Positions 29,044 through 63,304 of a DNA stretch of 64,000 nt are shown here, one piece after another. The DNA is from Planctomycetaceae bacterium (GTDB lineage Bacteria; Planctomycetota; Planctomycetia; Planctomycetales; Planctomycetaceae), in NCBI GenBank assembly GCA_021732845.1, contig JAKFUF010000004.1, forward strand, positions 1 to 64,000, in the 5' to 3' direction. Numbering within the stretch: the stretch's first letter is position 1; every line of letters starts with the position of its first letter. The notes below the pieces were generated by a model. It saw only the letters and a program-made list of their open reading frames with translations, had not been told where the DNA came from and did not search any database. The translations under genes and the position numbers were made by a program.

Positions 29044-30185
29044 GCTCGCTCATCTATCTTGACAACAACTCGACCACTCCCGTCGATCCGCTGGTGTTTG
29101 AAGCCATGCGGCCGTACTTCACTGAGTGGTACGGAAATCCCTCCAACCAGCATCATTCCGCCGGAAGCCGTGCAGCGCGTGCGGTGGAAAAGGCGCGTGC
29201 TCAGGTTGCCGCTGCTATCGGTGCGGAGCCTGCATCCATCGTGTTCACGAGCGGTGCGACCGAGAGCAATAATCTCGCGATCCTGGGCATATGCAGGGCA
29301 AGTCGTTCAGCGCCCGGCCACATCATCACGTCAGCCATCGAGCACAAATCTGTCGTCGAGCCGTACCGTCACCTGGAGGCATCGGGATGGAAGACTACTT
29401 TCCTTCGCCCAGATTCCCTGGGCACAGTTGACTGGCGATCAGTCGAGGATGCCATTACCCCGGCGACAATGCTGATTAGCATTATGGCGGCCAATAACGA
29501 AGTAGGTACGATTCAGGCCGTGGAGCAGATCGGTGAGGTATGCGACCGCCACGGGGTGATTTTCCATTGTGATGCCGCGCAATCGCTGGGTCGGATGCCG
29601 ATCAATATCAGCCATTGGAATGTTGATCTGTTGAGTTTGTCCGCACACAAGGCATATGGCCCGAAGGGTGTAGGGGCATTATTCGTGCGTGAGAATCGCA
29701 AAACGGACATGCTTGTACCGCTCGCCTTCGGCGGCGGACAGGAATCGGGTATCCGTCCGGGAACGCCTCCAGTGCCTAACATCGTTGGATTCGGGGCCGC
29801 GTGCGAACTGGCCTGCGGGAGCCTGGCGGAAGAGTCTGGTCGTCTTCGGATGCTTCGGCAGTCCTTGCTCGATCAACTCAGGCATTGTGTCCCGGACCTG
29901 GTGGTGCATGGCCATCCGACGGATGCACTTCCTGGTCTGCTTTCGGTCGGGCTTCCGGGTATAAACGGCGATGAATTCCTGTTTGCACTTCAAGATGTGG
30001 CAATCAGCCAGGGGGCAGCCTGTACTGCCGGGAGCCCTGAGCCTAGTCATGTGCTTAAAGCACTTGGCGTCGGATACGAACTCGCCCGTTCCAGCTTCCG
30101 ATTTGGCATTGGGAGATTTACCACCATAGAAGACGTTAATCGGGCGGCCGCAGAAGTGGCCCGAGTTCTTGCCATCTTGCGCTGA
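29040..30185 (+). CDS. sspA: Cysteine desulfurase, SspA/IscS-like
   Basis: A PLP-dependent class V aminotransferase-fold enzyme of 381 residues that would free sulfur from cysteine as an enzyme persulfide for phosphorothioation. Visible features are the N-terminal YLDNNSTTPVDP, the PLP-binding Lys204 in LSAHKAYG, and the catalytic loop with Cys328 in GAACTAGSPEPSHVLKALG. The GTG at 29040 overlaps the HNH stop (GTGA) and fits the family N-terminus. It lies at the end of the operon, far from sspBCD; in described Ssp operons it is usually first. The 220 bases that follow hold no recognisable gene and the next gene is convergent, so transcription should end there. Confidence 0.9.
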   Translation: MSSLIYLDNNSTTPVDPLVFEAMRPYFTEWYGNPSNQHHSAGSRAARAVEKARAQVAAAIGAEPASIVFTSGATESNNLAILGICRASRSAPGHIITSAIEHKSVVEPYRHLEASGWKTTFLRPDSLGTVDWRSVEDAITPATMLISIMAANNEVGTIQAVEQIGEVCDRHGVIFHCDAAQSLGRMPINISHWNVDLLSLSAHKAYGPKGVGALFVRENRKTDMLVPLAFGGGQESGIRPGTPPVPNIVGFGAACELACGSLAEESGRLRMLRQSLLDQLRHCVPDLVVHGHPTDALPGLLSVGLPGINGDEFLFALQDVAISQGAACTAGSPEPSHVLKALGVGYELARSSFRFGIGRFTTIEDVNRAAAEVARVLAILR

Positions 30186-30406: not shown

Positions 30407-33400
30407 TTATGTGGGGCTTTGGCCATCGGGCTTTTGCAGGCGCTCCGCCACGATGCGTTCTCGGAATGTCATCGGTGGTTGCGGGTTGATATCCGCCACG
30501 GGTATGGCATCGGCTTCGTTTGCTGAACCGGATGCGGCTATGGACTCAGTCCTACGCCGGATGCGGGCGGTGACAGGTTCCTCGGCGGAGGAATGCTTTT
30601 GGCGGACGCGCTGTGGCGTGGCCTCAATGCTGTGTGCCGCCTTGAGTGCCTTGATCTTCTCGGCGAGTTCGGAAACGCTCGGCCCTTCTTTTTTGTCCGA
30701 CTGATGGGCACTGCTCGAAAGTCCCGCCTTGAGCTGGTCACGCAGGCTTGTCAGTTCGGCCAGATATGCGTCATGCACGAACGGCTTGCCGAGCCGTGCC
30801 TGATAGTCGCGAACCTGGGCTTCGGCGATGGCGAGGTCTTGTCGAACACGGTCGCAGTCAGAGCCGTAGCCTGTGGCGAGACGGTCAAGGGCGTTCAGGA
30901 CGGCACGCGGTCCCTGGTGTTCCCGCGACAGCATGGTCGAGCGGGTCGTGCTGCCTTCGAGATAAACATCGGGCGGGAATTGCGGATGAACCACCATGCC
31001 AAAACGTAAGCCACGGTAAGTGCCAAGCGGAACGCGCGTCCTTTCCTGGATGTGCATCGGCATGGCATCAAATTTTGCACCGAGTACCTCGGTGATGGCG
31101 TCGCGGGCAATGTCTCGACCGCCGATGGCGATGGGGTCGGTGGCGTGCGCTTTCGCGGTGGCGTCGTCCGCCGAGAGCTTCGACAACCGCTCTTTCTGGC
31201 TTGCAATGGTTCCCGGCAAGTCCCGCACGCTGCGGCGGGCGACGTATTGTTCGTCGAGATGGTTTTTCTTGAGCAAGGTGAGCCGTTGCAATTCGGCGTC
31301 GGCCTCGGCGAGCGTCAACACCGCCGGGTTGCCTGATGCAATCGCTTTCACTTCGGCATAAGAGAGTTCCTGGCCGCCGATGTCCTCGGCACGCCGTAGC
31401 GCGTTGTCGCCGGTGATGACCTGGCCGATGAAGCGGGCCTTGGTCTCTAACGCCTGCCACATATAGGCGTCGAATGATCCTTCCGTGACATAGCGATAGA
31501 TCGACACTGCCGCGTTCTCGTTACCCTGCCGGAGTATGCGACCGTCGCGCTGCTCGACTTCCGCAGGCTTCCACGGGGCGTCGAGGTGATGCAGCGCAAC
31601 CAGTCGTTTCTGGACGTTGGTGCCGGTCCCCATCTTCTGTGTGCTGCCGATCAGCACGCGAACCGAACCGTTCCTGACCTTCTCGAAGAGCGCCTGTTTC
31701 TTGGCGTCGGATTCGGCGTCGCCGATGGCCGCGATCTGCTCGCGGGGGATGCCGTTTGCGATCAGCTTAGTGACGATCTCCTCGTAGGGTGAATACCCCC
31801 ACGCGGTAGGATTCACGCCCATGTCGGCGAAGATCATCTGTGTGCCGCGTGTCGCGGTGGATTGATTCCAGTTGGCCACGACATTATCGACGAGGCGGTT
31901 GACCTTCGATTCCGGGAAGTCAGGTGCCGTGGCGGAGAGCATCCGTGCGTCGGTCGCCAGTTTGCGTCCGTCGGTGGTGATGGAAAGGGCGTTGTCCTCA
32001 CGCGGATCAACCTTTTGTGACCGCAATCGTTCGTAACGCTCGACCAGTTCCTGCTGAAGGGCTTGCTGCTCTTCCGACATCGGGCAGGCAACCACGGTGG
32101 GCTTGCCGCCTTGCAGGCGGGGACGCGGCAGATTCAGCATCTCGGCAGTCTGCACATCCGAGAAAGCCCGGAACATCTGCTGGAGTTCCGGCAAGTTAGT
32201 AAATCGTGCGAATCGGCTGCGTGGCCTGAGTCCCGCGCCGTCTGGCGAGATTTCCATCGTGTCGATGACTTCGCCGAACGTCGCTGCCCATGCGTCGAAA
32301 TGCTCCAGCCCGCGGCTGCGTAGTCCTTCGGGATCGAGGAATCTCTGCATCGTGTACATCTCAACCATCGTGTTGGAAATCGGCGTGCCGGTGGCGAACG
32401 TCACTCCATGCCCGGCGTGCTGCTCGTCCAGGTAACGCGCTTTCATGTACACGTCAAAAGCCCGCTCCGATCCGCCGGTCTGGATGCCGGCGACACGTTC
32501 CATCTTGGTCGGCGTCTCCAGGTTCTTGAAATAATGGGCTTCGTCGATGAAGACGTGATCGACGCCGAGTTCATCGAACACCAGCCCGTCATCCTTCTTG
32601 TCCTCGGCGAGTAAATCCTTCAGGCGTTCGCATCTCGCTGCCTTCTGTTTCTCGATGGTCTTGATGAGGTTGCGGTTGGCACCTTTTGCACCCGCGTGCT
32701 CGATCAGCAACGCGTCGTACTCGGCGATCTGCTCAAGGAGAAACTTCTCCTGGTAGTCGCGTGACATGCCGATCCGCTCGAAGCTGCTGTGGGTGACGAT
32801 GATGCCGTCCCATTCGCCGCTGGCCATCTTGGCGGTCAGGAATTTGCGGCGGTCGCGGGTCAGGTCTTCCTTGGCGGCAACGAGCAATTTGGCGTTGGGG
32901 TAAAGCTGCATGAACTCGCGGGAGAACTGCTCCAGCAGGTGGTTGGGAACCACGTACATCGGCTTCTTGATAAGCCCGGCCTGCTTCATCTTCATGCCGG
33001 TCGCGGCCATCGTAAACGTCTTGCCTGCGCCGACGACATGGGCGAGCAGCGTGTTGCCCGAACTCATGCCGCGCCAGACGGCATCGTTCTGGTGGGGCCG
33101 AAGCGTCAGGGCTTGATTCATGCCGGGGAAATCGAGGTGCGACCCGTCGAACAGGCGGGGACGCAAATTGTTGTAAGTGTCGTTGTAAAGTCGCACGAGG
33201 CGTTCGGTGCGATCCGGCTCTTTGAATACCCAGGAGCGGAAGCGTTCCTTGATGAGTTTCTGCTTCTCTCTCGCGGCCATCGTGTCTTCCTGATTGACGA
33301 CGCGCTCCTCGCGATCGCCATTCTGGATCGTGTCGTAGATGGTCGGCGATTTCATGTTGAGCGCCAGTTCCAGCAGCCAGGTGCCGTTGGCTCGCGATGT

Positions 33401-37672: not shown

Positions 37673-37835
37673 ATCGGGGAGGAGGCCGCGAAGGGAGCCT
37701 GGCCTGATCCTTGACGGCCGGGGGATTCACCCCCGATTTGCGATGACTAAGCCATGAACGGCCCTGAGGTATGCTGCTTCTTCGTCTAACATCTCCGAAA
37801 CTCGCATGGATTGATTAACAGCGGGTAAACGCCAA

Positions 37836-38816
37836 CTACGGTCGCGGCGGTGTGTCCCGCCCGGTATTCGTTTCAGGCAGACGGCGGGCTTGGTCGGCGA
37901 GAGCGGGGAAGAGAGCGGTTTCAAGGCCTCTGATTTTGGCCTGTTTGGACAGGTTGGGCATGGTGAGGATGCGCTGGGCGGTGTCGGAAGAGATGCTAGT
38001 GCCCCAGAGGTTGAGATCACCGCCGACATGCAGGTCGGGCGGCAGGGTGGTGATGCGGGTGTGGCTGAGGTTGAGGTTTCCGCCGACATGCAGGTCGGGC
38101 GGCAGGGTGAGGATGCGCTGGGCGGTGTCGGAAGAGATGCTAGTGCCCCAGAGGTTGAGATCACCGCCGACATGCAGGTCGGGCGGCAGGGTGGTGATGT
38201 GGGTGTGGCTGAGGTTGAGGTTTCCGCCGACATGCAGGTCGGGCGGCAGGGTGGTGATGCGGGTGTGGCTGAGGTTGAGGTTTCCGCCGACATGGAGGCC
38301 AGTCGGCAAGGTGAGGATGCGCTGGGCGGTGTCGAAGTAGAGGCTACCGCCGACATGCAGGCCGGTCGGCAGGGCGGTGATGGGGGTGTGCCAGAGGTCG
38401 AGATCACCTCCGACATGCAGGCCGGTCGGCAGGGCGGTGATGCGGGTGTCGGTGAGGGCGAGGTTTTCGACCATGCCGCGGCAGAAGCTGATGCGCTGGG
38501 GTTCGTCGGCGACGATCCTGGCGATCTCGGGCGTGAGTTCGCGGATGCCGGGCCGCTCGCCCGCTTTGCAGGGGGCTAACATCTTTTCGATGAGTTCCTG
38601 TTCCCTGTTTCTCAGTGCCTCAAGGTGTGCAGCATCGGGCGGCTGGAGGGTGTTCCAGTCCAGTCCTCGTTCCAGGTTGCACTGGAGGCGGATCAATTCG
38701 GCGCGGTTCGGGTCGCCATTGTCTTCGAGCCAGTCGGCGTAAATAAGCCGGTCGGCATCGTCAGCCGGCTTGCTGGCAATGGCATCGAGGAATCCTGCTT
38801 CTTCTGATTCTGACAT
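37836..38816 (-). CDS. TIGR02996 domain plus LRR-like beta-repeat protein
   Basis: A 326-residue product. It opens with the TIGR02996 companion domain (LIYADWLEDNGDPNRAELIR), typical of Planctomycetes. The rest is built from about 20-residue repeats of the form ITALPTGLHVGGDLDLWHTP, expected to stack into a solenoid. No signal peptide is present, so a cytoplasmic binding role is likely. It is the downstream member of a tandem pair with the gene at 38861; the C-terminal ~70 residues are identical, and internal 60-bp and longer repeats show recent expansion. No enzyme motif is visible. Confidence 0.8.
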   Translation of the reverse strand: MSESEEAGFLDAIASKPADDADRLIYADWLEDNGDPNRAELIRLQCNLERGLDWNTLQPPDAAHLEALRNREQELIEKMLAPCKAGERPGIRELTPEIARIVADEPQRISFCRGMVENLALTDTRITALPTGLHVGGDLDLWHTPITALPTGLHVGGSLYFDTAQRILTLPTGLHVGGNLNLSHTRITTLPPDLHVGGNLNLSHTHITTLPPDLHVGGDLNLWGTSISSDTAQRILTLPPDLHVGGNLNLSHTRITTLPPDLHVGGDLNLWGTSISSDTAQRILTMPNLSKQAKIRGLETALFPALADQARRLPETNTGRDTPPRP

Positions 38817-38860: not shown

Positions 38861-39694
38861 CTACGGTCGCGGCGGTGTGTCCCGCCCGGTATTCGTTTCA
38901 GGCAGACGGCGGGCTTGGTCGGCGAGAGCGGGGAAGAGAGCGGTTTCAAGGCCTCTGATTTTGGCCTGTTTGGACAGGTTGGGCATGGTGAGGATGCGCT
39001 GGGCGGTGTCGGAAGAGATGCTAGTGCCCCAGAGGTCGAGATCACCGCCGACATGCAGGTCGGGCGGCAGGGTGGTGATGCGGGTGTGGTCGAGGTCGAG
39101 ATCACCTCCGACATGCAGGTCGGGCGGCAGGGTGGTGATGCGGGTGTGGCTGAGGCTGAGGTTTCCGCCGACATGCAGGCCAGTCGGCAGGGCGCTGATA
39201 GGGGTGTTGTCGAGGTAGAGGCTACCGCCGACATGCAGGCCGGTCGGCAGGGCGGTGATGGGGGTGTGCCAGAGGTCGAGATCACCTCCGACATTCAGGC
39301 CAGTCGGCAGGGCGGTGATGCGGGTGTCGGTGAGGGCGAGGTTTTCGACCATGCCGCGGCAGAAGCTGATGCGCTGGGGTTCGTCGGCGACGATCCTGGC
39401 GATCTCGGGCGTGAGTTCGCGGATGCCGGGCCGCTCGCCCGCTTTGCAGGGGGCTAACATCTTTTCGATGAGTTCCTGTTCCCTGTTTCTCAGTGCCTCA
39501 AGGCGTGCAGCATCGGGCGGCTGGAGGGTGTTCCAGTCCAGTCCTCGTTCCAGGTTGCACTGGAGGTGGATCAATTCGGCGCGGTTCGGGTCGCCATTGT
39601 CTTCGAGCCAGTCGGCGTAAATAAGCCGGTCGGCATCGTCAGCCGGCTTGCGGGCAATGGCATCGAGGAATCCTGCTTCTTCTGATTCTGACAT
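38861..39694 (-). CDS. TIGR02996 domain plus LRR-like beta-repeat protein, paralogue
   Basis: A 277-residue tandem paralogue of the protein at 37836, with the same N-terminal domain and the same C-terminal end (ALADQARRLPETNTGRD). It is shorter because it has fewer 20-residue repeats. The 44-base gap between the two genes repeats the sequence that follows the downstream copy, so the unit (about 1 kb) was duplicated as a block. The short stretch at about 39730-39750 upstream of it still encodes a PRP-stop end like these proteins, suggesting a third, lost copy. Confidence 0.8.
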   Translation of the reverse strand: MSESEEAGFLDAIARKPADDADRLIYADWLEDNGDPNRAELIHLQCNLERGLDWNTLQPPDAARLEALRNREQELIEKMLAPCKAGERPGIRELTPEIARIVADEPQRISFCRGMVENLALTDTRITALPTGLNVGGDLDLWHTPITALPTGLHVGGSLYLDNTPISALPTGLHVGGNLSLSHTRITTLPPDLHVGGDLDLDHTRITTLPPDLHVGGDLDLWGTSISSDTAQRILTMPNLSKQAKIRGLETALFPALADQARRLPETNTGRDTPPRP

Positions 39695-39869
39695 GTCCAG
39701 AGTTTCGCATGGAATGGTTAACGGCGGGTAAACGCCAATTACGGTCGCGGCAGATCATGGCTTCTGTTTCCGATTAGTGTTGCAATGCCCGGTTTGATCG
39801 CACGCGATCAACCGAAACAGAGGGAAAGCTGAGAGGGAGAGTGCAGTCAAAGACGGCCATTGTGGGGGT

Positions 39870-45542: not shown

Positions 45543-45627
45543 TGGTGCGGATGATCGGACTCGAACCGATACTCTTTTGGGAACGGAAACCTAAATCCCG
45601 CGCGTCTGCCAATTCCGCCACACCCGC
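45543..45627 (-). tRNA. tRNA-Leu (UAG anticodon)
   Basis: Read on the minus strand, the acceptor arm GCGGGTG pairs with CATCCGC, followed by the A discriminator and an encoded CCA. The anticodon stem CGGGA/TTCCG holds the loop TTTAGGT with anticodon TAG, which reads CUA. A long variable arm and the T-loop GGTTCGAGTCC are as expected for tRNA-Leu. It lies 64 bases from the integrase stop, a common integration setting, but the integrase is on the 5' side of the tRNA. Confidence 0.93.
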
Positions 45628-45691
45628 ACAATTCACCTCTATAGCTGTGAAGGATGCTTCAGCCAACAAATATTGTTTCGATGGATCGCTC

Positions 45692-46891
45692 TCAGTCTTC
45701 TTCAATGGGTGAGGACTGCTCAGTTTTGCTTAGGTTCGGCTTGTTTTTCCGCACGTTAATGGCTGCCGCGTCCAGCGTGTTCTTGATGTGTGAGGCATAG
45801 TATTTCTCAATCATCTCGACGCTTGTACGGCAGTTCTTCGCAATCTGGTAAATGTCGGCGCCCTCCATCAGGCGTAGGCAGATGTAGGTGTGCCTCAAGC
45901 TGTAGGCGGTGCGGCGATTTCCGTCCCGATCAACCTTCAATTCAAGCTCGTTCAGAATGATATTGAACAGGTCACGTTGGGTTTTCCCAAAGACTCGGTC
46001 CTTTGGCAGCGGTTTCTTGCGCTTCCGCAACCGCTCAAAGGGCATGACTGCGCCGGTCATGCTTTTGCAGTAACCCACACCACGCTTGCCGCGTACTTCG
46101 ATTTCGAGGATGCGTTCGCTCGTTGCTTCATCGGTAACGATGGCAACGTCTCGAAATTCGAGGCGGGCGGCCTCGTCCGGCCTCAACCCAGTGTTTGCCA
46201 TGAAAAGAACGTAATCGTGCAAGTTCTCGCACGCCATTTTCCAACGAGGGTTCTTCGGGCTTTGGGCCCTTTTGCGAGTTGCCTGATAAAGCTGCTTGTA
46301 CTCTTCGGGCGAGAACCACGCCCGATGGGTGATTTTGCCAGACATCTTGTAAGGTGCTGAAATGTCGGGCAGATACGGTAACCAGCCTTGCCGGTTGGCA
46401 GTTTTCAGGACTTGCCGGAGGACCACCAATTCCTGTTGAAGAGTGCTCCGCGACGGCCGGAGAGGTTCGCCCGTCTTCTTATCCTTGCGGGATGTCACCC
46501 GATGGATGCGGTAATCTTGCACCAATCCCGGTGTTATCTCCGAAAGAGCCTTGTCGCCGAAAAAGGGAAGCAGGTGAACTCGTAGCCGGTCGCGCACGCC
46601 TTCCACGTATTTCGGGCTGCGTTCACCAAAAGTGATAACTTCGTATTCGACAAGGAACCTGTCAGCGGCGAGTCGGAACGTCTTTCCGCCTTTAAGCTCG
46701 CCCAAACGGTCTTTGACTTTCAGGCCAAGATACCAGTCCTCAGCGAAGTCTTTTGCATGTGAAAGACTTTCCTCCATCGTGGAGACTCGCCAGTTCTTGC
46801 CCGCGAGGTAGGTCGAGCATTGCCAGTAGCTGCTGTTTTCCCGGCGGTAGATATGGAGCTTTCCTCCCATCATTTCATGGTGTTCTGGCAT
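45692..46891 (-). CDS. Tyrosine recombinase / integrase
   Basis: A 399-residue site-specific recombinase. The N-terminal part has an arm-binding-like region and a SAM-like core-binding domain (about residues 70-175). The catalytic domain shows Arg237 in TGLRPDEAARL, a Lys near 269, SLRHTYICLRL (Arg333-His334) and the nucleophilic Tyr365 in VEMIEKYYAS. The usual second histidine position is occupied by NCRTS, which is seen in other element integrases. It probably integrates the element at the adjacent tRNA-Leu. Two TGTGTAAGT direct repeats lie 48-67 bases upstream of its start. Confidence 0.9.
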   Translation of the reverse strand: MPEHHEMMGGKLHIYRRENSSYWQCSTYLAGKNWRVSTMEESLSHAKDFAEDWYLGLKVKDRLGELKGGKTFRLAADRFLVEYEVITFGERSPKYVEGVRDRLRVHLLPFFGDKALSEITPGLVQDYRIHRVTSRKDKKTGEPLRPSRSTLQQELVVLRQVLKTANRQGWLPYLPDISAPYKMSGKITHRAWFSPEEYKQLYQATRKRAQSPKNPRWKMACENLHDYVLFMANTGLRPDEAARLEFRDVAIVTDEATSERILEIEVRGKRGVGYCKSMTGAVMPFERLRKRKKPLPKDRVFGKTQRDLFNIILNELELKVDRDGNRRTAYSLRHTYICLRLMEGADIYQIAKNCRTSVEMIEKYYASHIKNTLDAAAINVRKNKPNLSKTEQSSPIEED

Positions 46892-47544: not shown

Positions 47545-50241
47545 ATGATCCGCATCACGCAACAGGATAGTGCCAAGGACGCCAAACGCTACTACGCGAC
47601 GGCGGACTATTACAGCGAAGGGCAGGAGCTGGTTGGCTCCTGGGGCGGCAAGGGCGCATCCCGGCTTGGTCTTGAAGGGACCGTTGACAAGTTCTCTTTT
47701 GAGCGGCTTTGCGACAACCTTGATCCACGGACCGGGGAACCGCTGACAGTCCGGACACGTTCCGACCGGACGGTGGGGTACGACTTCACATTCTCGGTGC
47801 CGAAGTCGGTGTCATTGCTGTACGCCTTGAGCGGCGACCAGGACATTCTGGGTGCGTTCCGTGCGGCGGTCGATGAGACGATGCGTGAGATGGAAGCGGA
47901 GATGAAGACACGCATTCGCAGGAATCTCCAGGATACCGACCGCACTACCGGCAACATGGCCTGGGCAGAATTCATCCACACCACATCCCGGCCCGTTGAC
48001 GGCCTCCCCGATCCGCAATTGCACGCCCATGTCTTCGTGTTCAACACAACCTGGGACGAAGAGGAAAGCCGCTGGAAAGCGGGCCAGTTCCGGGAACTCA
48101 AGCGGGATGCCCCGTACTTCCAGGCGGCATTCCGGGTCCGCCTCGCGGGCAAGCTTCAGGATCTGGGCTTTGGCGTTGCTCGCAAGCGGGACGATTTCGA
48201 GATTGCCGGGATTCCGGCCGATGTGCTGGGGCGATTCTCGCGGCGCACGGCGTTGATCGAGAAGCTGGCTGAGGAAAAAGGCATCACCGATCCCGACCGC
48301 AAAGCGGAACTCGGGGCCGAAACCCGCGAAAAGAAAGGCAAGCCACTTGGCTGGGATTCGCTGCGTAAAGAATGGGACGCACGTCTTACCGACAAGGAAC
48401 GCAAGGCGCTGGCGGCGGTCCACCGCCGTGAAATCTTAATTGCAAGGCCCGAGCGTGGTGAGGTCTACTCCGTCGATCACGCCGTCGAGCATAGTTTCGT
48501 GCGCGAGGCGGTGGTGCCGGAGCGCAAGCTGCTTACCGAAGCCCTGAAACGCGGAATCGGCGCAGTGACGGTCGAGGGCGTGACTCGCGAAATGGCGGAG
48601 CGTCCCCTGATCCGCAGCGAGGTCGCCGGTCGCAAGATGGCGACCACAAAAGAAATGGTGGCGCTGGAATCGCGTCTGATCGACTTCGCACGCCAGGGAC
48701 GCGGGCGTTGCCGGCCGCTGGGTGATCCGGATCGCCCATGCTCGCGGGAATGGTTCAACGACGGCCAGAAGGAAGCTGTCCGGCACGTCCTCGGCTCCCG
48801 CGACCGCGTGATGATTATCCGCGGTGTTGCCGGGACGGGAAAAACGACGCTCGAACAGGAAATCGGCGAAGCATTGGCGGACGCCAATCGGCCGGTCGTC
48901 GCCCTGGCTCAGTCGGTGAAGGCCAGCCGGGAAGTGCTGCGTGAAGAGGCAGGCTTCAAAATGGCCGACACCGTGGCCCGGTTCATGAAAGACTCGGCCA
49001 TGCAGGAAGCGGCGAGGGGCGGCGTCATCCTCGTCGATGAGGCCAGCCAGCTCGGCACGCGGGACATGCTCAGCGTGTTCGACGTGGCGCAGTCTGTAAA
49101 CGCCCGCGTCATTCTCGTGGGCGACCGCAGGCAACACCGCAGTGTCACTGCCGGTGAACCGCTGAAGCTGCTGGAAGAAACGGCGGGTCTGCAAGTAGCC
49201 GAAGTGACGGACATCCTGCGCCAGCAGGGCGATTACAAGAAAGCGGCGCAGGCGCTGAGCGAAGGCAGGACGGATGAAGGATTCGAGGAACTCGACAAGC
49301 TGGGCTGGATCAAGGAAGTGGCCGATGGCGACCGCTACAAGCAGTTGGCCGACGCATACCTCTCGGCGGTGGCCGAGAAGAAAAAGGGCGACCAGCCCAA
49401 GTCGGCACTCGTCGTGTCGCCGACACACGCCGAAGCGAACCGAATCACGGATGCGATTCGCAGCGGGTTGAAGGCGCAAGGCAAGCTCGGCGAGGAACAC
49501 ATCGTCAAAGGATGGGTTGCGGCCCATCTGACGGATGCGCAGAAAACCGATGCCACTCAGTACGAGCCGGGCGACCTGCTTCAGTTCCACCAGAATGCAC
49601 CCGGCTACCAGAAAGGATCGCGCCTGATCGTGGATGAGGGGGCCAAACCGCCGACCGAGCTTGCGACCCGTTTCGAGGCGTACCGCCCGACGCAGTTCGC
49701 CCTGGCCGCCGGAGACCGCGTGCGGGTCACGGCGGGCGGCAAGACCAAGGACGGCAAACATCGCTTAAGCAACGGGTCACTCCTGACCGTTCAGGGATTC
49801 ACCAAGGCCGGCGACATTGTTGTCGATCACGGCTGGGTCATCGCTCAGGATTTCGGCCATTTGACGCACGGATACGTCGTGACCAGTCATGCCAGCCAGG
49901 GCGTGACGGTGGACAAGGTATTTGTCGGCGTTTCCAGCGAGTCCTTCCCCGCGACGTACCAGCGGACGGCCTACGTCGCACTGACGCGGGGGAAAGAACA
50001 GGCACAGATATTCACAAACGACCGTAACGAGCTTTTGAAAGCGATCTGCCGACCCGACGATCCGATGTCGGCAACGGAGCTTTCAACGCCGACGCAACCG
50101 AAACCGAGTTTGCGCAGCGGCATGATGAAGCGTCTGGCGTTCGCACGCGGGCACGGCGTCTACGCTGCACGCAACGAGTCGCTCCAGCCGGGTGTCACCA
50201 GAGACGGTGTGGCCGTAAGGGGAATGGACCATGACCGATGA
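47545..50241 (+). CDS. MobF (TrwC/TraI-type) relaxase-helicase
   Basis: The 898-residue protein has an N-terminal relaxase domain with candidate catalytic tyrosines in RYYATADYY (residues 15-23) and the metal-binding HUH-type motif LHAHVFVFN near residue 158. It is followed by a RecD-like helicase with Walker A GVAGTGKTT near 427 and Walker B VILVDEASQLG. It would nick the element at oriT and unwind the strand for transfer. The stop overlaps the next gene start by 11 bases. The size is close to that of other MobF relaxases. Confidence 0.92.
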   Translation: MIRITQQDSAKDAKRYYATADYYSEGQELVGSWGGKGASRLGLEGTVDKFSFERLCDNLDPRTGEPLTVRTRSDRTVGYDFTFSVPKSVSLLYALSGDQDILGAFRAAVDETMREMEAEMKTRIRRNLQDTDRTTGNMAWAEFIHTTSRPVDGLPDPQLHAHVFVFNTTWDEEESRWKAGQFRELKRDAPYFQAAFRVRLAGKLQDLGFGVARKRDDFEIAGIPADVLGRFSRRTALIEKLAEEKGITDPDRKAELGAETREKKGKPLGWDSLRKEWDARLTDKERKALAAVHRREILIARPERGEVYSVDHAVEHSFVREAVVPERKLLTEALKRGIGAVTVEGVTREMAERPLIRSEVAGRKMATTKEMVALESRLIDFARQGRGRCRPLGDPDRPCSREWFNDGQKEAVRHVLGSRDRVMIIRGVAGTGKTTLEQEIGEALADANRPVVALAQSVKASREVLREEAGFKMADTVARFMKDSAMQEAARGGVILVDEASQLGTRDMLSVFDVAQSVNARVILVGDRRQHRSVTAGEPLKLLEETAGLQVAEVTDILRQQGDYKKAAQALSEGRTDEGFEELDKLGWIKEVADGDRYKQLADAYLSAVAEKKKGDQPKSALVVSPTHAEANRITDAIRSGLKAQGKLGEEHIVKGWVAAHLTDAQKTDATQYEPGDLLQFHQNAPGYQKGSRLIVDEGAKPPTELATRFEAYRPTQFALAAGDRVRVTAGGKTKDGKHRLSNGSLLTVQGFTKAGDIVVDHGWVIAQDFGHLTHGYVVTSHASQGVTVDKVFVGVSSESFPATYQRTAYVALTRGKEQAQIFTNDRNELLKAICRPDDPMSATELSTPTQPKPSLRSGMMKRLAFARGHGVYAARNESLQPGVTRDGVAVRGMDHDR

Positions 50242-53299: not shown

Positions 53300-53345
53300 C
53301 GCGCGGCGAGAGCAACCACGAATGCTCCGCCCGCCGCAACACTAA
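53151..53345 (+). CDS. Small helical protein, unknown
   Basis: A 64-residue product with an excellent ribosome site (AAGGAGG, 6 bases before ATG 53151). Sequence is helical (VATALSKAILDIFQNLL). The stop overlaps a downstream in-frame ATG of the coupling protein gene. No family is recognised. Confidence 0.65.
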   Translation: MDNQRLKHDVATALSKAILDIFQNLLRPEEFRDAMEETYLAVKAGLETYDARREQPRMLRPPQH

Positions 53346-53356
53346 TGGAGGGAACC

Positions 53357-55102
53357 ATGTACACGCTGACTCGATTCGCGCTCATCGCCACTGTCCTGCT
53401 CGCCGCTTACTGCGCCTTTATGCTCACCATCATGATCCCGTGGGCGTGGGTGGCCCTGGCCATCGGGGCCGCTATCGCGTTGGCAAAGCGCGGCTATCGC
53501 TACACCGCCTTCGGTACAGCGCGATGGGCCGATGCCTCCGATCTTCAGGGAATGCTCGACGGCAACGGACTCATCATCGGGCGGATTGAGTCCGGTCGCA
53601 GCCTGAAATTCTGGCCGCTGTTCAATCCCCGGATCGCGTCAGCGGTCGCCTGCGATCAGTTCCTCGCCCGGTTCCGCCGGAAGTGTCCGCAGATGGTCAC
53701 GCTGTCGAAGGCCGTGCATACGGCGGTCTTCGCTCCGACCGGCGTTGGCAAAGGCGTCTCCTGCGTCATCCCGCACCTGCTGACCTGCACGGATTCGATG
53801 GTAGTCGTTGATTTCAAAGGCGAGAACGCCCGCATTACTGCAAAAGCGCGGCGGGCGATGGGCCACCGTGTCGTACTGCTCGATCCGTTCAAATTGGAGA
53901 CGCAATCTCCGGACAGTTTCAACCCGCTGGACTTTATCGGGGCGGACACTCCGAACGCACTGGATGAGTGCCGCGACCTCGCCGAGTCGCTGGTGATTCG
54001 TACCGGCCAGGAGAAAGACCCGCACTGGGGAGATTCCGCCGAAGTGTGGATCGCCGCGATGGTCGCTGCGGTGGTGCATTACGGGGAAGGTTCGGACCGT
54101 TCATTGCAGGCCGTCCGGATGCTGCTCACCGACCAGCAGAAGATGGAGGCCATCATCAAGCTGATGCAGGCTTCGGATGCCTGGGACGGGATGCTTTCAC
54201 GGCTTGGGCATCAGCTCACGCAATTCAAGGAGAAGGAACTCGGCTCGACGCTGACCACGACCAACCGGTTCATGCGGTTCCTCGACACGATGTCCGTCGC
54301 CGATAGCACAATGGCCAGTTCCTTCGATCCCGCCGACCTGCTCAAGGGCAGGGTGACGGTCTACCTCATCCTGCCGCCGGAACACATGCGGGCGCAGTCG
54401 GCGTTACTCCGAATGTGGATCGGCTCGCTGCTGCGGGCGGTGGTGCGGGGAGGGCTTCAGGAACGGAAGAAAGTTCATTTCGTCCTCGACGAGGCGGCAA
54501 GCCTCGGCCACATGGATGCGCTCGATGACGCGGTGGACAAGTTCCGGGGCTACGGCGTGCGGCTCCAGCTTTACTACCAGTCGCTCGGACAGTTGAAGAA
54601 GTGTTTCCCGGAGGGCGGCGATCTAACGCTTTTGGGCAATTGCACAACGATCTGGTTCGGCGTCAACGACAACGACACGGCGGAGTATGTCAGCAACCGG
54701 CTCGGCGAGGAGACCATCGTCATCACGAGCGGCGGGACCAGTTCGGGCATGTCCCGGCAGACGGGGCACGATGGCAGTTACAGCTACTCGACGAACGAAA
54801 GTGAAAACTGGCAGCAGCATGGACGGAAGCTGCTCAAGCCTGAAGAGGTGATGGCCCTGCCGGAGCGGACGGCCATCACCTTCACTCCCGGCGTGCCGCC
54901 GATCTGGACAACGCTGATTCGCTACTACGAGGGGTCGCTCAAACAGCCCGGCCGGTTCTGGCCGGCAATCAGGTCGTTCGTGGACGCCGTGTGCCTGCTG
55001 CTGTTGGCCCTGATGCTGGCGGCGCTGCTGAGCGGGATGGCAAACGATGTGGGTGGGAGCGCACCGGGCGCTCCTACCCAAGAGGATTGGCTCTTCAAGT
55101 AA
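53357..55102 (+). CDS. VirD4/TraG-type coupling protein
   Basis: A 581-residue protein with two N-terminal transmembrane segments (residues 5-40), Walker A APTGVGKGVS near residue 126 and Walker B HFVLDEAASLGHMD near 375. This is the type IV secretion coupling protein that brings relaxase and DNA to the channel. GGAGGG is 4 bases before ATG 53357; ATG 53345 in the same frame is possible. The C-terminus carries a third hydrophobic segment (LLLLALMLAALLSGM), which is less usual for this family. No T4SS channel genes are in the window. Confidence 0.85.
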   Translation: MYTLTRFALIATVLLAAYCAFMLTIMIPWAWVALAIGAAIALAKRGYRYTAFGTARWADASDLQGMLDGNGLIIGRIESGRSLKFWPLFNPRIASAVACDQFLARFRRKCPQMVTLSKAVHTAVFAPTGVGKGVSCVIPHLLTCTDSMVVVDFKGENARITAKARRAMGHRVVLLDPFKLETQSPDSFNPLDFIGADTPNALDECRDLAESLVIRTGQEKDPHWGDSAEVWIAAMVAAVVHYGEGSDRSLQAVRMLLTDQQKMEAIIKLMQASDAWDGMLSRLGHQLTQFKEKELGSTLTTTNRFMRFLDTMSVADSTMASSFDPADLLKGRVTVYLILPPEHMRAQSALLRMWIGSLLRAVVRGGLQERKKVHFVLDEAASLGHMDALDDAVDKFRGYGVRLQLYYQSLGQLKKCFPEGGDLTLLGNCTTIWFGVNDNDTAEYVSNRLGEETIVITSGGTSSGMSRQTGHDGSYSYSTNESENWQQHGRKLLKPEEVMALPERTAITFTPGVPPIWTTLIRYYEGSLKQPGRFWPAIRSFVDAVCLLLLALMLAALLSGMANDVGGSAPGAPTQEDWLFK

Positions 55103-58005: not shown

Positions 58006-58142
58006 TGGATCACTCCGGTCCGATCCGGCGTGCGACCAAAGCCTGGAAGCAGCACCCTGAACAGGTACGCTCCAACGAAGAATCCGTTAGAATGATCGTG
58101 GCGGCGAGTCGGTTGTGTCAGGCTCTCTTCGGAATCCTCGTC
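58006..58142 (+). pseudogene. Decayed copy of the recombinase-associated protein
   Basis: The segment reads WITP, then after a frameshift IRRATKAWKQHPEQ and NEESVRMIVAASRLCQAL. This matches the intact relative at 56932 (ITLELIERTIKVWQPYYEQV and so on). It runs directly into the serine recombinase remnant. The stretch 57535-58005 holds no gene that I can support. Confidence 0.5.
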
Positions 58143-58440
58143 ATGAAACAATTTGTGGCACTTGCTCGGGTCAGCAGCCGGGAACAGGAACGCGAAGGCT
58201 TCAGCCTCGAAGTGCAGGAAGATGCCCTGCGGCGGTATGCGACGCAGGCTGGCGGTGAAATCGCCAAGTTCTTCCGCATCGCCGAGACCGCGAGCAAGGG
58301 CGACGAACGCAAGACGTTCCGCGAACTGGTCAACTACGCCAAGAAGAACGCGGGCGTTCTCGACGGCCTGCTCTTCTACAAGCATCCAGATCGCGGAGTT
58401 CGAGACTCATGAGGCGTTGAAGGAGTGGCTCCAGTAAACG
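58143..58440 (+). pseudogene. Serine recombinase N-terminal fragment, chimeric
   Basis: ATG 58143 begins MKQFVALARVSSREQEREGF, the resolvase-type catalytic start with the active serine in the ARVSS region, and continues to LLFYKHPDRG. Normal enzymes go on for several hundred residues. Here the frame changes near 58379 and the sequence in the other frame (IAEFETHEALKEWLQ) matches the C-terminus of the relaxase-linked protein at 50231. The locus is therefore a fusion of two broken genes. Confidence 0.65.
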
Positions 58441-58640: not shown

Positions 58641-59012
58641 ATGCGTATTCAATGTAAATGGAATTCTACTCTGGCCTGCGTGGCAATGATCTCCATGTTT
58701 GTGATGCCGCCTGCAAGCTATGCGGTCCCTGGCTCGATAGAGCTGGACAATGGGCTTCTCAGTAACCCGACTGCGCCAATAGTATATGAATGCAAATCCT
58801 ACAAGGATGGAAGCACTGGCCTATACGATGAGTATGGCCACGTTGACCTGGTCAGCAACGGAACCATATTACAAACATGGTCGTATGAGACAGTGATAGA
58901 GAATGGGAAGACTGACTTGGATACAGTATTTAAAAAGTGCAAAGCTGAGGCTGCTCGCCTCGAAGGTGAAGACGAAGTGGTGGGCAACGCCATCAAAGGT
59001 GGTGGAATGTAA
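58641..59012 (+). CDS. Small secreted protein
   Basis: A 123-residue product with AAAGGGG 7 bases before the ATG. An N-terminal signal peptide is clear (basic start, then LACVAMISMFVMPPASYA, cleavage likely after Ala). The mature part contains two Cys (YECKSY, KKCKAE) that could form a disulfide. No family is recognised. It converges on the LRR operon, and both share the strong terminator at 59031-59065. Confidence 0.7.
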   Translation: MRIQCKWNSTLACVAMISMFVMPPASYAVPGSIELDNGLLSNPTAPIVYECKSYKDGSTGLYDEYGHVDLVSNGTILQTWSYETVIENGKTDLDTVFKKCKAEAARLEGEDEVVGNAIKGGGM

Positions 59013-59030
59013 TATACATTTGCCGACGAC

Positions 59031-59065
59031 AAAAAGCGCGCGGACCTGTGTTCCGCGCGCTTTTT
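59031..59065. terminator. Strong bidirectional terminator
   Basis: AAAAAGCGCGCGGA (59031-59044) and TCCGCGCGCTTTTT (59052-59065) form a perfect 14-bp stem with T runs on both strands. It ends both the plus-strand secreted protein gene and the minus-strand LRR operon. Confidence 0.9.
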
Positions 59066-59105
59066 CACCTGACCGATGCTTTCGGTCGAAGGCGGTGTGA
59101 GTGCG

Positions 59106-60089
59106 TCATCGTTGCCTGGCCCCGGCGCGACGATGATCCATCGTCCGGTTGATTTCCTGCATAGCATAGTCACCAATGTTGTTGCCTCCGAGGTCAAGGC
59201 AAGTGAGGTTTTTCAGGTGCGGCAAGTTCACCAGCTCCTGTGCGCCTTCGTCGTGAATGACGTTGCCGAAGAGGTTGAGGTGGGTGAGGTTTTTCAGGTA
59301 CGGCGAATTCGCAAGTGATAGTGCTCCATTATTCCCGATACTGTTCAAGCCCAGGCTGAGCTGCACCAGGTTCTTCAGGTTCGGAGAGTTTGCCAGCGCC
59401 TCTACGCCTTCGTCGTGAATGACGTTGCCGAAGAGGTTGAGGTGGGTGAGGTTTTTCAGGTGCGGAGAGCTTGCCAGCGCCTCTACGCCTTCGTCGCCAA
59501 TGACGTTGCCGAAGAGGTTGAGGTGGGTGAGGTTTTTCAGGTGCGGCGAGTTCGCAAGTAATCGTGCTCCATTATTCCCGATACGGTTAAAGCCCAGGCT
59601 GAGGTGGGTGAGCTTCTCCATGTGCGGGGAGTTGGCCAGGGGCGTTATCTGCTCAGCGGTAACACCGACCAGCCAGGCTTCCCGGATCGGGGCCTTCGCG
59701 AACAGGACCTTGCCGTGGCTCAGGAAATCACTGGCGGAGATCGTGATTCCGTCCGGCAGACCCCGGCTGAATTCGACTCCAGTGGCACCAAGCGCACGGA
59801 GTGGTTCCTCCCAGGCATCTTGGTACTGCCCCAGCAATTCCCGCTCCCGAGCCGCAAAATACTGGCGGCGTTCGTCCGTGAGTACACCGCCATCGAGTTC
59901 CAATCCGGAGGCAAGCACCACCTGTGCCCGGATGAACTCCGCCTTATCGTTGAAGGGCTTCTGTTTCTCTTTGTTCCCAAGCCCATCGGCATGGTCATCG
60001 AGCCAGTCGGCGTAGATCAGCCGCGGTACATCCTCATCGGGATGCTCGATGATGTCCGCAAGGAATTGCTTCTCCATCGCGTCCGTCAT
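59106..60089 (-). CDS. TIGR02996 plus leucine-rich-repeat protein, fourth in operon
   Basis: A 327-residue product. The TIGR02996 domain (DVPRLIYADWLDDHADG) is followed by a linker and about seven ribonuclease-inhibitor-like LRRs (LKNLTHLNLFGNVIGDEGVE). There is no signal peptide, so it is probably intracellular and binds protein. Start and previous stop overlap as ATGA (60086-60089), with GAGGCGAGG in the preceding gene tail as ribosome site. The repeat number and order differ from its three upstream paralogues. It is the last gene before the terminator. Confidence 0.85.
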   Translation of the reverse strand: MTDAMEKQFLADIIEHPDEDVPRLIYADWLDDHADGLGNKEKQKPFNDKAEFIRAQVVLASGLELDGGVLTDERRQYFAARERELLGQYQDAWEEPLRALGATGVEFSRGLPDGITISASDFLSHGKVLFAKAPIREAWLVGVTAEQITPLANSPHMEKLTHLSLGFNRIGNNGARLLANSPHLKNLTHLNLFGNVIGDEGVEALASSPHLKNLTHLNLFGNVIHDEGVEALANSPNLKNLVQLSLGLNSIGNNGALSLANSPYLKNLTHLNLFGNVIHDEGAQELVNLPHLKNLTCLDLGGNNIGDYAMQEINRTMDHRRAGARQR

Positions 60090-61228
60090 CGCTGCCTCGC
60101 CTCGGCGCGACGACGATCCATCGTCCGATTGATTTCCCGTAGGGTATTGTCGTCAATGGCGGCGTCAATCAGGTAGAGTTCAGCGAGGCTGGCGAGGCTC
60201 GGCGAATTCGCAAGAACCCATGCTCCATTGTTACCGATTCGGTTCCGACTCAGGTCGAGCCGCTTTAAGTTCTTCAGGTGCGTGGAGTCGGCCAGCGCCT
60301 GTGCGCCAGTGGGACCGATGTTGTTGTTCATCAGGCTGAGATCAGTGAGGTTCTGCATGTGCGGAGAACTCGCCAGTGCTTGTACTCCACCGTCACCGAT
60401 CTCGTTGATACTCAAGTCGAGGTTAGTGAGTTTCTCCATGTGCTGCGAATTCGCCAGCGCCCGTATGCCGGTAATTCCGATTTCGTTGCACCCCATACGG
60501 AGGCTGGTGAGGTTCTCTAGGTGCGGTGACTCCGCAATTGCTCGCGCTCCATCGTTCCCGATCTCGTTGTTACTCAAGTCGAGCTGCTTTAGATTCTTTA
60601 CATGTGGCGAATTCGCAAGTGATCGCGCTCCATCGTTCCCGATCTCGTTGTTACTCAAGTCGAGCTGCTTTAGATTCTTTACATGTGGCGAATTCGCAAG
60701 TGATCGTGCTCCATTATTCCCGATACTGTTCAAGCCCAGGTTGAGGCTGGTAAGCTTCTCCAGGTGCGGGGAGTTGGCCAGGGGCGTCATCTGCTCAGCG
60801 GTAACATCGAACAGCCAGGCTTCCCGGATCGGGGCCAGATCGAACAGTTGGTCGGCATAGCTGAAGAAATCACTGGCGGAGATCGTGATTCCGTCCGGCA
60901 GACCCCGGCGATATTCGACACATGTGACGCCACGGTCGCGAAGTGGTTGTTCCCACGTGGCCTGATATGTTTCCAACAACTTCTGCTCGCGGCACTCCAG
61001 TTCCTTGCGGCGGTCGTCCGTGAGTACACCGCCGTGCTCCTTACCGGATGCGAGTGCCACCTGGGCGCGGATGAACTCCGCCTTATCGTTGAAGGGCTTC
61101 TGTTTCTCTTTGTTCCCAAGCCCATCGGCATGGTCATCGAGCCAGTCGGCGTAGATCAGCCGCGGTACATCCTCATCGGGATGCTCGATAATATCCGCAA
61201 GGAATTGCTTCTCCATCGCATCCGTCAT
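60086..61228 (-). CDS. TIGR02996 plus leucine-rich-repeat protein, third in operon
   Basis: A 380-residue paralogue, the longest of the four. Two adjacent LRR units are identical at DNA level (around 60535-60700), evidence of recent internal duplication. It overlaps both neighbours by 4 bases. It ends NRTMDRRRAEARQR like its paralogues, since this tail carries the ribosome site for the next gene. Confidence 0.85.
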   Translation of the reverse strand: MTDAMEKQFLADIIEHPDEDVPRLIYADWLDDHADGLGNKEKQKPFNDKAEFIRAQVALASGKEHGGVLTDDRRKELECREQKLLETYQATWEQPLRDRGVTCVEYRRGLPDGITISASDFFSYADQLFDLAPIREAWLFDVTAEQMTPLANSPHLEKLTSLNLGLNSIGNNGARSLANSPHVKNLKQLDLSNNEIGNDGARSLANSPHVKNLKQLDLSNNEIGNDGARAIAESPHLENLTSLRMGCNEIGITGIRALANSQHMEKLTNLDLSINEIGDGGVQALASSPHMQNLTDLSLMNNNIGPTGAQALADSTHLKNLKRLDLSRNRIGNNGAWVLANSPSLASLAELYLIDAAIDDNTLREINRTMDRRRAEARQR

Positions 61229-62208
61229 CGCTGCTTCGCCTCAGTGCGACGACGATCCATCGTCCGGTTGATCTCCTGTAGGACATTGTCGCCAATGGCG
61301 GCATTAATCAGGTCGAGATGGGTAAGGTTCTCCAGATGCGGCGATTTTGCCAGCGCCCATGCTCCATCGGTATCGATTTGGTTCCGACTCAGGTCGAGCC
61401 GCTTTAAGTTCTTCAGGTGCGTGGAGTCGGCAAGCGCCTGTACGCCGACATTCCCGATCTCGTTGTTACTCAGGTCGAGCCGCTTTAAGTTCTTCAGGTG
61501 CGTGGAGTCGGCAAGCGCCTGTACGCCGACATTCCCGATCTCGTTGTTACTCAAGTCGAGGTTAGTGAGGTTCTCCATGTGGGACGAACTCGCCAACAAC
61601 TGCACGCCTTCGTCGCCGAGCATGCTGCCATACAAGCTGAGGCTAGTGAGGTGCTTCAGGTGCGTGGAGTCTGCCAGTGCCCGCGCTCCTGCCACGCCGA
61701 GCGGGCGGCCTCTCAGGCTGAGGCTGGTCAGGTTCTCCAGGTGCGGGGAGTTGGCCAGGGGCGTCATCTGCTCAGCGGTAACACCGACCAGCCAGGCTTC
61801 CCGGATTGGGGCCCGCGCGAACAGGTCCTCGCCGTGGCTGAGGAAATTCCCGGCGGAAATGGTGATTACGTTTGGCAGCCCCCGGCGGAATGTGACAGTA
61901 CGGGCACCAAGGGCGAGGAGTGGTTTTTCCCAAGCATCTCGGTACTGCTGCATAAGTTTCTGTTCCCGGCCCTCAAGCGCCTTACGGCGGTCGTCCGTGA
62001 GTACACCGCCATCGAGTTCCAATCCGGAGGCAAGCACCACCTGTGCCCGGATGAACTCCGCCTTATCGTTGAAGGGCTTGTGTTTCTCTTTGTTCCCAAG
62101 CCCATCGGCATGGTCATCGAGCCAGTCGGCGTAGATCAGCCGCGGTACATCCTCATCGGGATGCTGGATAATATCCGCAAGGAATTGCCGCTCCATCGCG
62201 TCCGTCAT
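61225..62208 (-). CDS. TIGR02996 plus leucine-rich-repeat protein, second in operon
   Basis: A 327-residue paralogue with the same domain order. It contains two tandem near-identical LRR units (about 61400-61560, NEIGNVGVQALADSTHLKNL). The N-terminal domain is nearly identical to those of the third and fourth genes, while the LRRs are more like the first. It is coupled to both neighbours by ATGA overlaps. No catalytic motif is present. Confidence 0.85.
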   Translation of the reverse strand: MTDAMERQFLADIIQHPDEDVPRLIYADWLDDHADGLGNKEKHKPFNDKAEFIRAQVVLASGLELDGGVLTDDRRKALEGREQKLMQQYRDAWEKPLLALGARTVTFRRGLPNVITISAGNFLSHGEDLFARAPIREAWLVGVTAEQMTPLANSPHLENLTSLSLRGRPLGVAGARALADSTHLKHLTSLSLYGSMLGDEGVQLLASSSHMENLTNLDLSNNEIGNVGVQALADSTHLKNLKRLDLSNNEIGNVGVQALADSTHLKNLKRLDLSRNQIDTDGAWALAKSPHLENLTHLDLINAAIGDNVLQEINRTMDRRRTEAKQR

Positions 62209-63185
62209 CGCTGCCTCGCCTCGGCGCGACGACGATCCATCGTCCGATTGATTTCCCGTAGGGTATTGTCGTCAATGGCGGCATTAAACAGGTCGAGATG
62301 GGTAAGGTTCTCCAGACGCGGCGATTTTGCCAGCGCCCATGCTCCATCGGTATCGATTTGGTTCCGACTCAGGTTGAGCCGCTTTAGGTTCTTCAGGTGC
62401 GGGGACTCCGCAAGCGCCTGTACGCCGACATTCCCGATCTCGTTGTTACTCAAGTCGAGTTGTTTTAGGTGCTTCAGGTGCGGGGACTCCGCAAGCGCCC
62501 GTGCTCCACCCTCATTGATATTGTTACAACTCAAGTCGAGGTTAGTGAGGTTCTCCAGGTGGGACGAACTCGCCAACACCCGCACGCCTTCGTCGCCGAA
62601 CATGCTGCCATACAAGCTGAGGCTAGTGAGGTGCTTCAGGTACGGGGAGTCTACCAGCGCCCGCGCTCCTGCCACGCCGAGCGGGAGGCCTCTCAGGCTG
62701 AGGCTGGTGAGGTTCTCCATGTGCGGGGAGTTGGCCAGGGGCGTTATCTTCTCAGCGGTAACACCGACCAGCCAGGCTTCCCGGATCGGGGCCAGATCGA
62801 ACAGGGCTTCGCCGTGGCTCAGGAAATTCCCGGTGGAAATGGTGATTGCGTTTGGCAGCCCCCGGCGGAATGTGACAGTCCGGGCACCAAGGTCGACGAT
62901 TGGCTTTTGCCACGCCTTTCGGTACTGCTGCATAAGTTTCTGTTCCCGGCCCTCAAGCGCCTTACGGCGGTCGTCCGGGAGTACACCGCCGTGCTCCTTA
63001 CCTGATGCGAGTGCCACCTGGGCGCGGATGAACTCCGCCTTATCGCAGAATGCCGCACGTTGCTGTTGGTTTTGTTGTTCCCCGGCATGGTCTTCGAGCC
63101 AGTCGGCGTAGATCAGCCGCCGCCCGTCATCATCGGGATGCTCGATGATGTCCGCAAGGAATTGCTTCTCCATCGCGTCCGTCAT
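62205..63185 (-). CDS. TIGR02996 plus leucine-rich-repeat protein, first in operon
   Basis: A 326-residue paralogue. The N-terminal TIGR02996 domain differs slightly (DDDGRRLIYADWLEDHAGEQ). LRRs follow to the tail NRTMDRRRAEARQR. Its ATG overlaps the stop of a 40-residue ORF upstream (63182-63304), so translation likely depends on that ORF. Confidence 0.85.
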   Translation of the reverse strand: MTDAMEKQFLADIIEHPDDDGRRLIYADWLEDHAGEQQNQQQRAAFCDKAEFIRAQVALASGKEHGGVLPDDRRKALEGREQKLMQQYRKAWQKPIVDLGARTVTFRRGLPNAITISTGNFLSHGEALFDLAPIREAWLVGVTAEKITPLANSPHMENLTSLSLRGLPLGVAGARALVDSPYLKHLTSLSLYGSMFGDEGVRVLASSSHLENLTNLDLSCNNINEGGARALAESPHLKHLKQLDLSNNEIGNVGVQALAESPHLKNLKRLNLSRNQIDTDGAWALAKSPRLENLTHLDLFNAAIDDNTLREINRTMDRRRAEARQR

Positions 63186-63304
63186 GGCCGCCTCGCCTCG
63201 GCGCGACGATGTTCCAGTGCAATCCTGTGCATCAGCCGCCGACGCATTGCATCTTCTCTTTGCCCAGAACCTGAATCAAGTGCCTGATTGATAACTATAA
63301 ACAT
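63182..63304 (-). CDS. 40-residue leader ORF of the LRR operon
   Basis: ATG at 63304 has AAGGA about 7 bases upstream. The peptide starts MFIVINQALDSGSGQREDAM and ends with RRAEARRP. The DNA of this tail matches the tails of the LRR genes (CGTCGCGCCGAGGCGAGGC), and the stop overlaps the first LRR gene as ATGA. It appears to be a translated leader providing coupling. The region 63305-63616 upstream is AT-rich, presumably promoter, with no other gene. Confidence 0.55.
   Translation of the reverse strand: MFIVINQALDSGSGQREDAMRRRLMHRIALEHRRAEARRP

Follow-up and report, generated by a model that had tools for sequence, protein, structure and literature searches.

A tandem array of TIGR02996 leucine-rich repeat genes in a planctomycete was probably copied in phase with its overlapping gene junctions

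How does a tandem gene array grow, when tandem copies often lack expression signals of their own? The question is raised by a locus of Planctomycetaceae bacterium (GenBank assembly GCA_021732845.1, contig JAKFUF010000004.1), of which we analysed positions 1 to 64,000 (the window). On the minus strand at 59106-63304, four genes (g1-g4) encoding a TIGR02996 domain followed by leucine-rich repeats (LRRs) lie head-to-tail behind a leader open reading frame (ORF) of 40 aa. The leader (63182-63304) has a sequence resembling a Shine-Dalgarno site (SD), TAAGGAA, ahead of its ATG, and its final ~10 codons are homologous to the tails of the genes. It is followed by g1 (62205-63185, 326 aa; TIGR02996 domain, LRR_6 repeats and a C-terminal helix), g2 (61225-62208, 327 aa), g3 (60086-61228, 380 aa, about two repeats longer) and g4 (59106-60089, 327 aa), the last in the array. 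The protein family, the shared junctions, the homology of leader and tails, and the mosaic tracts described below are demonstrated by sequence comparison. We conclude that the array very probably arose by tandem duplication of a unit whose ends keep phase with the junction, so that the sequence from which ribosomes would restart lies inside the copied unit. The explanation as a whole, including the order of events that we infer, is given a probability of about 0.7.

Each of the four junctions (leader to g1, g1 to g2, g2 to g3 and g3 to g4) has a 4-nt stop/start overlap, ATGA, as a first-pass annotation of this DNA had claimed. Its further claim that the same DNA precedes all of them held for three: GAGGCGAGG is found exactly ahead of the start at leader to g1, g1 to g2 and g3 to g4, and the g2 to g3 junction carries the variant GAGGCGAAG. 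Aligned on the start codon, the junctions J0 (leader to g1, 63177-63216), J1 (g1 to g2, 62200-62239), J2 (g2 to g3, 61220-61259) and J3 (g3 to g4, 60081-60120), all on the minus strand, agree at 32-40 of 40 positions between -31 and +8, with J0 matching both J1 and J3 at 36/40 and J1 matching J3 at 40/40. The unusual feature of the locus is this shared sequence, rather than the ATGA overlap or the presence of a short upstream ORF.

The strongest similarity extends well beyond the 40 positions. J1 and J3 are identical across 92 bp (-74 to +17), silent sites included. Between -74 and +217, limits that were set by eye, they differ at 6 of 292 bp, compared with 28/126 before this tract and 18/43 after it. 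When the tract was scored by permutation of polymorphic sites, it ran from -64 to +197 with 21 of 27 polymorphic sites in common (p = 0.0002, the lowest value that 5000 permutations can give). Because the tract runs over the stop-start overlap, the junction has been copied or converted as a single piece, and this bears out the claim that the tail of the copied unit carries the ribosome site of the next gene. Other junction pairs carry significant tracts of their own by the same permutation test, and the array is therefore mosaic throughout.

Relationships among the genes change along their length. In synonymous divergence (dS), g1 and g2 are sisters in the linker (0.17) and in the LRR part (0.11); in the first 60 codons, their dS is 0.55 and g2 is closest to g4 (0.07). 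LRR values for g4 against the others may reflect repeats aligned out of register. Such conflicts in relatedness between one stretch of a gene and the remainder are expected of tandem duplicates with gene conversion, and they indicate that exchange among the copies ran over the stop-start overlap. Plain paralogy, with purifying selection on the C-terminal helix and a leader likeness due to coincidence in Arg/Ala/Glu-rich, GC-rich coding sequence, would account for a tail that is part of the fold and for ATGA overlaps and short overlapping ORFs, both of which occur widely; yet the leader match lies far above shuffles, and J1 and J3 share their silent sites over 92 bp between flanks that differ. 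We regard plain paralogy as very improbable. Clusters of plant nucleotide-binding LRR (NLR) genes are tandem paralogue arrays with gene conversion. The planctomycete array resembles them in its mosaic tracts between copies and its diverged LRRs; it differs in being bacterial, probably transcribed as one unit, and in having translation signals within the repeated unit.

The short ORF upstream of g1 does end with the same tail as the genes, as had been proposed. Over the final 31 bp of the leader ahead of the g1 start, 24-27 positions are the same as in the gene tails; agreement drops abruptly beyond -31, to only 7-8 of 30 positions. An ungapped alignment of the leader with the g1 tail scored 24, with 27 identities in 30 bp, and the maximum in 2000 dinucleotide shuffles was 13. 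A search of the source genome for the leader as a conserved small protein returned the leader itself and weak matches (best other E-value 0.02), and reading the site of that match in one frame added nothing. We also considered whether the leader is remarkable in itself and ruled this out, as short overlapping ORFs are not rare at TIGR02996 starts.

Where the tail came from can be approached through the protein it encodes. In a structure model of g1 (mean predicted local distance difference test (pLDDT) score 96.6, 38 sequences), the tail forms the second half of a C-terminal helix spanning residues 306-325. A gene from another family of the same class (locus L152), which has no adjacent copy, ends in NAVRHEIERTMEERRPGRPR, by eye like EINRTMDRRRAEARQR; because it starts with ATGG, a 4-nt overlap with a leader is impossible there. 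We prefer the reading that the tail belongs to the gene, with the leader as a remnant that has a new start and its own SD-like sequence. The leader is somewhat more probably a truncated unit, the tail of a lost upstream unit, than the source of the tail. In the opposite scheme the leader came first and donated the final ~10 codons, the SD and the ATGA when the first duplication joined the founder's C-terminus in frame to the leader tail, which would have given all later copies a leader-like end. It is in keeping with this scheme that upstream of the start the leader is homologous over no more than ~31 bp, that the leader and g4 have a CAT codon where g1-g3 carry CGT, and that no relative has a statistically detectable tail. 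However, L152 lacks a leader although its C-terminal helix looks similar by eye, and the last copy should have retained the founder's original end, yet g4 ends in the same tail. We consider an origin from the leader unlikely, though it is the most serious of the alternatives.

With the tail as part of the gene, the history would begin with a founder TIGR02996-LRR gene in which the DNA encoding the C-terminal helix contained an SD-like sequence and ended in CGATGA. Tandem amplification of this founder, with each stop overlapping the next start, would have produced copies born with GAGG ~5 nt ahead of the next ATG. Exchange among the copies would then have kept the stretches around the junction and the N-terminus alike while the LRR parts diverged, and the leader would be what is left of the lost upstream unit, its tail, read from a new start codon. 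A fifth copy may have been lost after g4. The array would be read as one transcript from the leader region to a terminator-like hairpin at 59031-59065, ~40 nt past the g4 stop and between g4 and a convergent ORF (58641-59012). This hairpin has a z-score of -3.71, and none of 200 shuffles was equally stable; it is missing from the list produced by a pattern scan. That scan did list two weak -35/-10-like matches (63321-63294 and 63539-63512), both within shuffle expectation. On reaching the end of one ORF, ribosomes would reinitiate at the AUG that overlaps its stop, from gene to gene. Because the restart sequence is inside the copied unit, the number of genes can rise without new promoters or leaders. 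The array thereby offers a concrete and testable model for the expansion of large paralogue families such as TIGR02996.

Termination-reinitiation coupling at ATGA overlaps is described as widespread (PMC6728339, PMC10666635). One of these sources (PMC10666635) gives the 4-nt overlap as by far the commonest spacing among 2,661,236 gene pairs surveyed, and in two E. coli pairs it finds the final 15 nt of the upstream gene enough for coupling. The array shares with such pairs the 4-nt overlap and an SD-like motif inside the upstream gene, at its 3' end: GAGG ~5 nt ahead of the next ATG, with a predicted SD pairing of -8.1 kcal at three junctions (J0, J1, J3) and -5.6 kcal at J2 under an assumed anti-SD sequence. 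It differs in that its putative coupling sequence has multiplied with the gene. The arginine codon AGG occurs in 0/72 cases in the gene bodies and 3/18 in the last 12 codons. Selection for the SD through codon choice was nevertheless ruled out, as the tails are mutual copies and synonymous resampling gave an equally strong SD in 16% of draws.

Two controls lower the weight of the overlap and of the short ORF. Four-nucleotide overlaps are ordinary, being seen in 4 of the 8 closely spaced plus-strand pairs of ORFs in the window (ORFs of at least 200 aa, with starts assigned mechanically), and a short ORF overlapping a TIGR02996 start by 4 nt is not rare either: 72 such overlaps were found among 170 TIGR02996 genes, of which 4 come from the LRR array and 27 others involve ORFs of 20-100 aa by hand count. 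Other observations weigh against the proposed history. No 16S gene was found in the assembly and the anti-SD was therefore assumed; an SD of this strength arises in the 16% of resampling draws noted above, and the hairpins at the junctions have z-scores of only -0.16 to -2.25. A search with the last 46 residues of g1 against 397 genomes retrieved only the four array genes at E ≤ 1e-6. The order of tail first and leader later is not firm, since the likeness of L152 was judged by eye and lacks a statistical match. No relative with another array length was found in the genomes searched. Finally, the assembly consists of 262 contigs, and near-identical tracts may be misassembled and the copy number too low.

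It may be that the junction is a portable element with two roles, at the DNA level a short repeat where tandem amplification begins and copies are kept alike, and at the RNA level a reinitiation module. In folding predictions with 120 nt of context, the AUG was closed at J1, J2 and J3 (unpaired probability 0.00-0.03) and open at J0 (0.77-0.89). This would make g2-g4 lean on coupling more than g1, which the predictions suggest only weakly. The three closed starts are copied junctions, and hence not three independent cases; synonymous resampling for closure of the J1 start gave 0.037, and a value below 0.05 was also predicted for 11 of 147 other TIGR02996 starts, which speaks against closure as a special feature. 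In its RNA role the junction would be a complete module: most of the SD would sit in a loop, and a stem would hold the start codon at J1, J2 and J3 but leave it open at J0. If the dual role were real, any gene amplified on the junction would become part of an ordered, strictly coupled operon.

The edges of the array bear on the DNA role. The g4 terminus (GGGGCCAGGCAACGATGACG; J4, 59101-59140, minus strand), taken in the same register, is junction-like too, as is expected because g4 holds the fourth copy of the gene end. Past its stop, 4 of 5 bp match, and then the likeness ends. The 3' edge is therefore uninformative, and on the sequence comparison the 5' edge alone is informative in the LRR array. 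We had considered a 40-bp repeat bounding both edges, as J0 and J4 agree at 33/40 positions with 7/30 on each side, and withdrew it for the 3' edge. A blastn search of the 3' flank found no junction copy there. Because the 3' edge is uninformative, the dual role as a whole becomes less likely, and we hold it to be rather improbable.

A second TIGR02996 array, ~20 kb from the first and on the same strand, has junction relics at both of its edges. It consists of B1 (38861-39694, TIGR02996 with repeats) and B2 (37836-38816, TIGR02996), separated by 44 nt. A copy of the B1-B2 junction lies 5' of B1 (39695-39751; 62 bp including the start, 98% identity, with 13 bp of gene tail), and a decayed copy with a third start, the relic ATG at 37792, follows B2 (37766-37835; 74 bp, 81% identity). 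If the junction does have a dual role, this second array would make junction copying a general growth route for TIGR02996 families. Outside the window we compared 27 tandem pairs in the same way; at none of their outer edges was the pair's own junction repeated over at least 12 bp beyond the start or stop, and with several of these loci ending near the array, some edges were covered only in part. The two longer matches, in loci L107 and L168, fall between internal genes of three-gene arrays. The parts and the mechanism proposed here are of known kinds; the interest lies in the copied junction, the leader tail and the parallel second array.

Is the arrangement found in relatives? The source genome is the sole genome of its genus, hence the genus offers no relative for comparison. 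Searches of 170 genomes of the family and order at E ≤ 1e-30 (≤13 candidates scored per genome) and of 397 genomes of the class at E ≤ 1e-35 (≤5 candidates scored per genome) yielded no near relative. The best match outside the array to a profile derived from it had an E-value of 6.9e-62, and its own members scored 1e-191 to 1e-200, with g3 as two pieces. Two narrow peptide patterns fitted 50 stretches among genome contigs and 77 among viral contigs, with none confirmed in either set, and the 4 plasmid records that matched all had <60% identity. Array length is thus not comparable between relatives, because no near relative was found in the genomes searched, and the self-extending growth put forward in the first-pass annotation is conjectural.

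More distant tandem arrays are plentiful. TIGR02996 (rpt_mate_G_obs) LRR proteins are mostly from Planctomycetota, and like the array members combine the domain with LRR_6; such genes are numerous in the class and often tandem, with 17 to 92 TIGR02996 domains per genome in five genomes of one or two contigs. Planctomycetes of some rank account for 77 of the 79 named loci, these being the best of 334 confirmed stretches (the exceptions are L099 and L102). In the fetched loci we counted 31 tandem TIGR02996 pairs: 9 overlap by 4 nt, including the 3 of the LRR array, 1 has another overlap, 15 are spaced by 0-50 nt and 6 by >50 nt. These loci were picked by similarity and adjacency, so that the counts are not frequencies, and where several starts were possible the gap was set to -4, which affects L093 and L107. 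The array differs from the 28 other pairs, none of which has its junction sequence. The first-pass annotation had named relatives with separated genes or without a leader ORF as counting against a self-extending operon. Such arrangements were seen, in distant relatives only: 21 of the 28 other pairs do not overlap, and L152, which has the most similar C-terminus and is itself a distant relative, is a single gene without an overlapping leader. We found no paper on the TIGR02996 domain in the open-access literature of one library.

The products of the array would be cytosolic LRR proteins of the ribonuclease inhibitor (RI) type that share one N-terminal domain and differ in their repeat faces. 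All four match TIGR02996 at the N-terminus (g4 57.1, g3 57.1, g2 56.4 and g1 48.8 bits; curated cut-off 29.05), and LRR_6 repeats follow in each (E-values 2.6e-21 to 1.4e-36). The LRR part is of the RI type both by fold (1dfj; template modelling score 0.54 by query length) and by sequence. It matches the LRRs of RI and the NLRP family; unlike in RI, NLRP and bacterial LRR proteins, the N-terminal TIGR02996 domain, when modelled alone (pLDDT 91.5), had no significant PDB match (best E-value 1.8), and Pfam searches of the array proteins found no NTPase or effector domain. No PADLOC family matched at E ≤ 0.001 when g1 alone was scanned, giving no sign of a defence protein, and no signal peptide was seen on inspection by eye, with no predictor run.

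The first-pass annotation had further described the array as encoding diversified binding proteins, a description that stands in part. The repeat framework is nearly fixed, and across 17 repeat units picked up by pattern, the most variable positions are 6, 8, 10, 11, 13, 16, 17, 20 and 24, which by analogy fits binding faces generally. The codon changes between g1 and g2 do not single out the repeats: the ratio of amino-acid-changing to silent codon differences in the LRR part is 28:11, which does not exceed that of the N-terminal part (18:7) and is little above that of the linker (13:6). When computed as rates, dN/dS is higher in the LRR part (0.096/0.112) than in the N-terminal part (0.177/0.551), on small numbers.

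The LRR array appears to be situated on a mobile island. The window contains a TrwC relaxase (47545-50241), a type IV coupling protein (53345-55102) and a resolvase fragment (58092-58412), and a large serine recombinase gene (C16, 64785-66572; L011, 8786-10573) starts 0.8 kb past its end. At its 3' end, this gene overlaps a partial tRNA-Asn copy (the 3' half), with a 56-bp match of 94.6% to an intact tRNA-Asn on contig C210 (L153, 31-103). This copy is probably the attachment site. A mobile island would explain the absence of a near match in the other 169 genomes of the family. The nearby recombinase could also suggest that the ~40-bp junction is a site-specific recombination site and the LRR genes exchangeable cassettes on the island, given that the same sequence bounds the units and hairpins can be drawn at J1-J3. 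The unit bodies are, however, close paralogues rather than unrelated cassettes, the shared tracts extend far past 40 bp, and the tRNA-Asn copy accounts for the recombinase as the integrase of the island. A cassette origin is accordingly highly unlikely.

Other features of the window were noted in passing. At 45543-46891, a tRNA-Leu(TAG) adjoins a weakly matching tyrosine integrase, followed by the TrwC relaxase and type IV coupling protein; this is possibly a second integrative element. A phosphorothioate-type defence cluster occupies 9684-30185 (+), with PADLOC matches to SspB (9684-10688), SspC (10682-14137), SspD (18800-19612) and SspA/DndA (29040-30185), all on the plus strand, and HATPase and HNH genes in between. 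Within the coding region of this cluster, ARAGORN called a 101-nt tRNA-Gly at 19892-19992 (+), which is probably a false call. A 1904-aa protein at 30407-36121 (-) has SNF2/ResIII helicase and weak methylase matches and is possibly a large restriction-type enzyme. At 229-4165 (-), nSTAND1 NTPase and WD40 ORFs share 155 bp and may represent one split or frame-shifted STAND protein.

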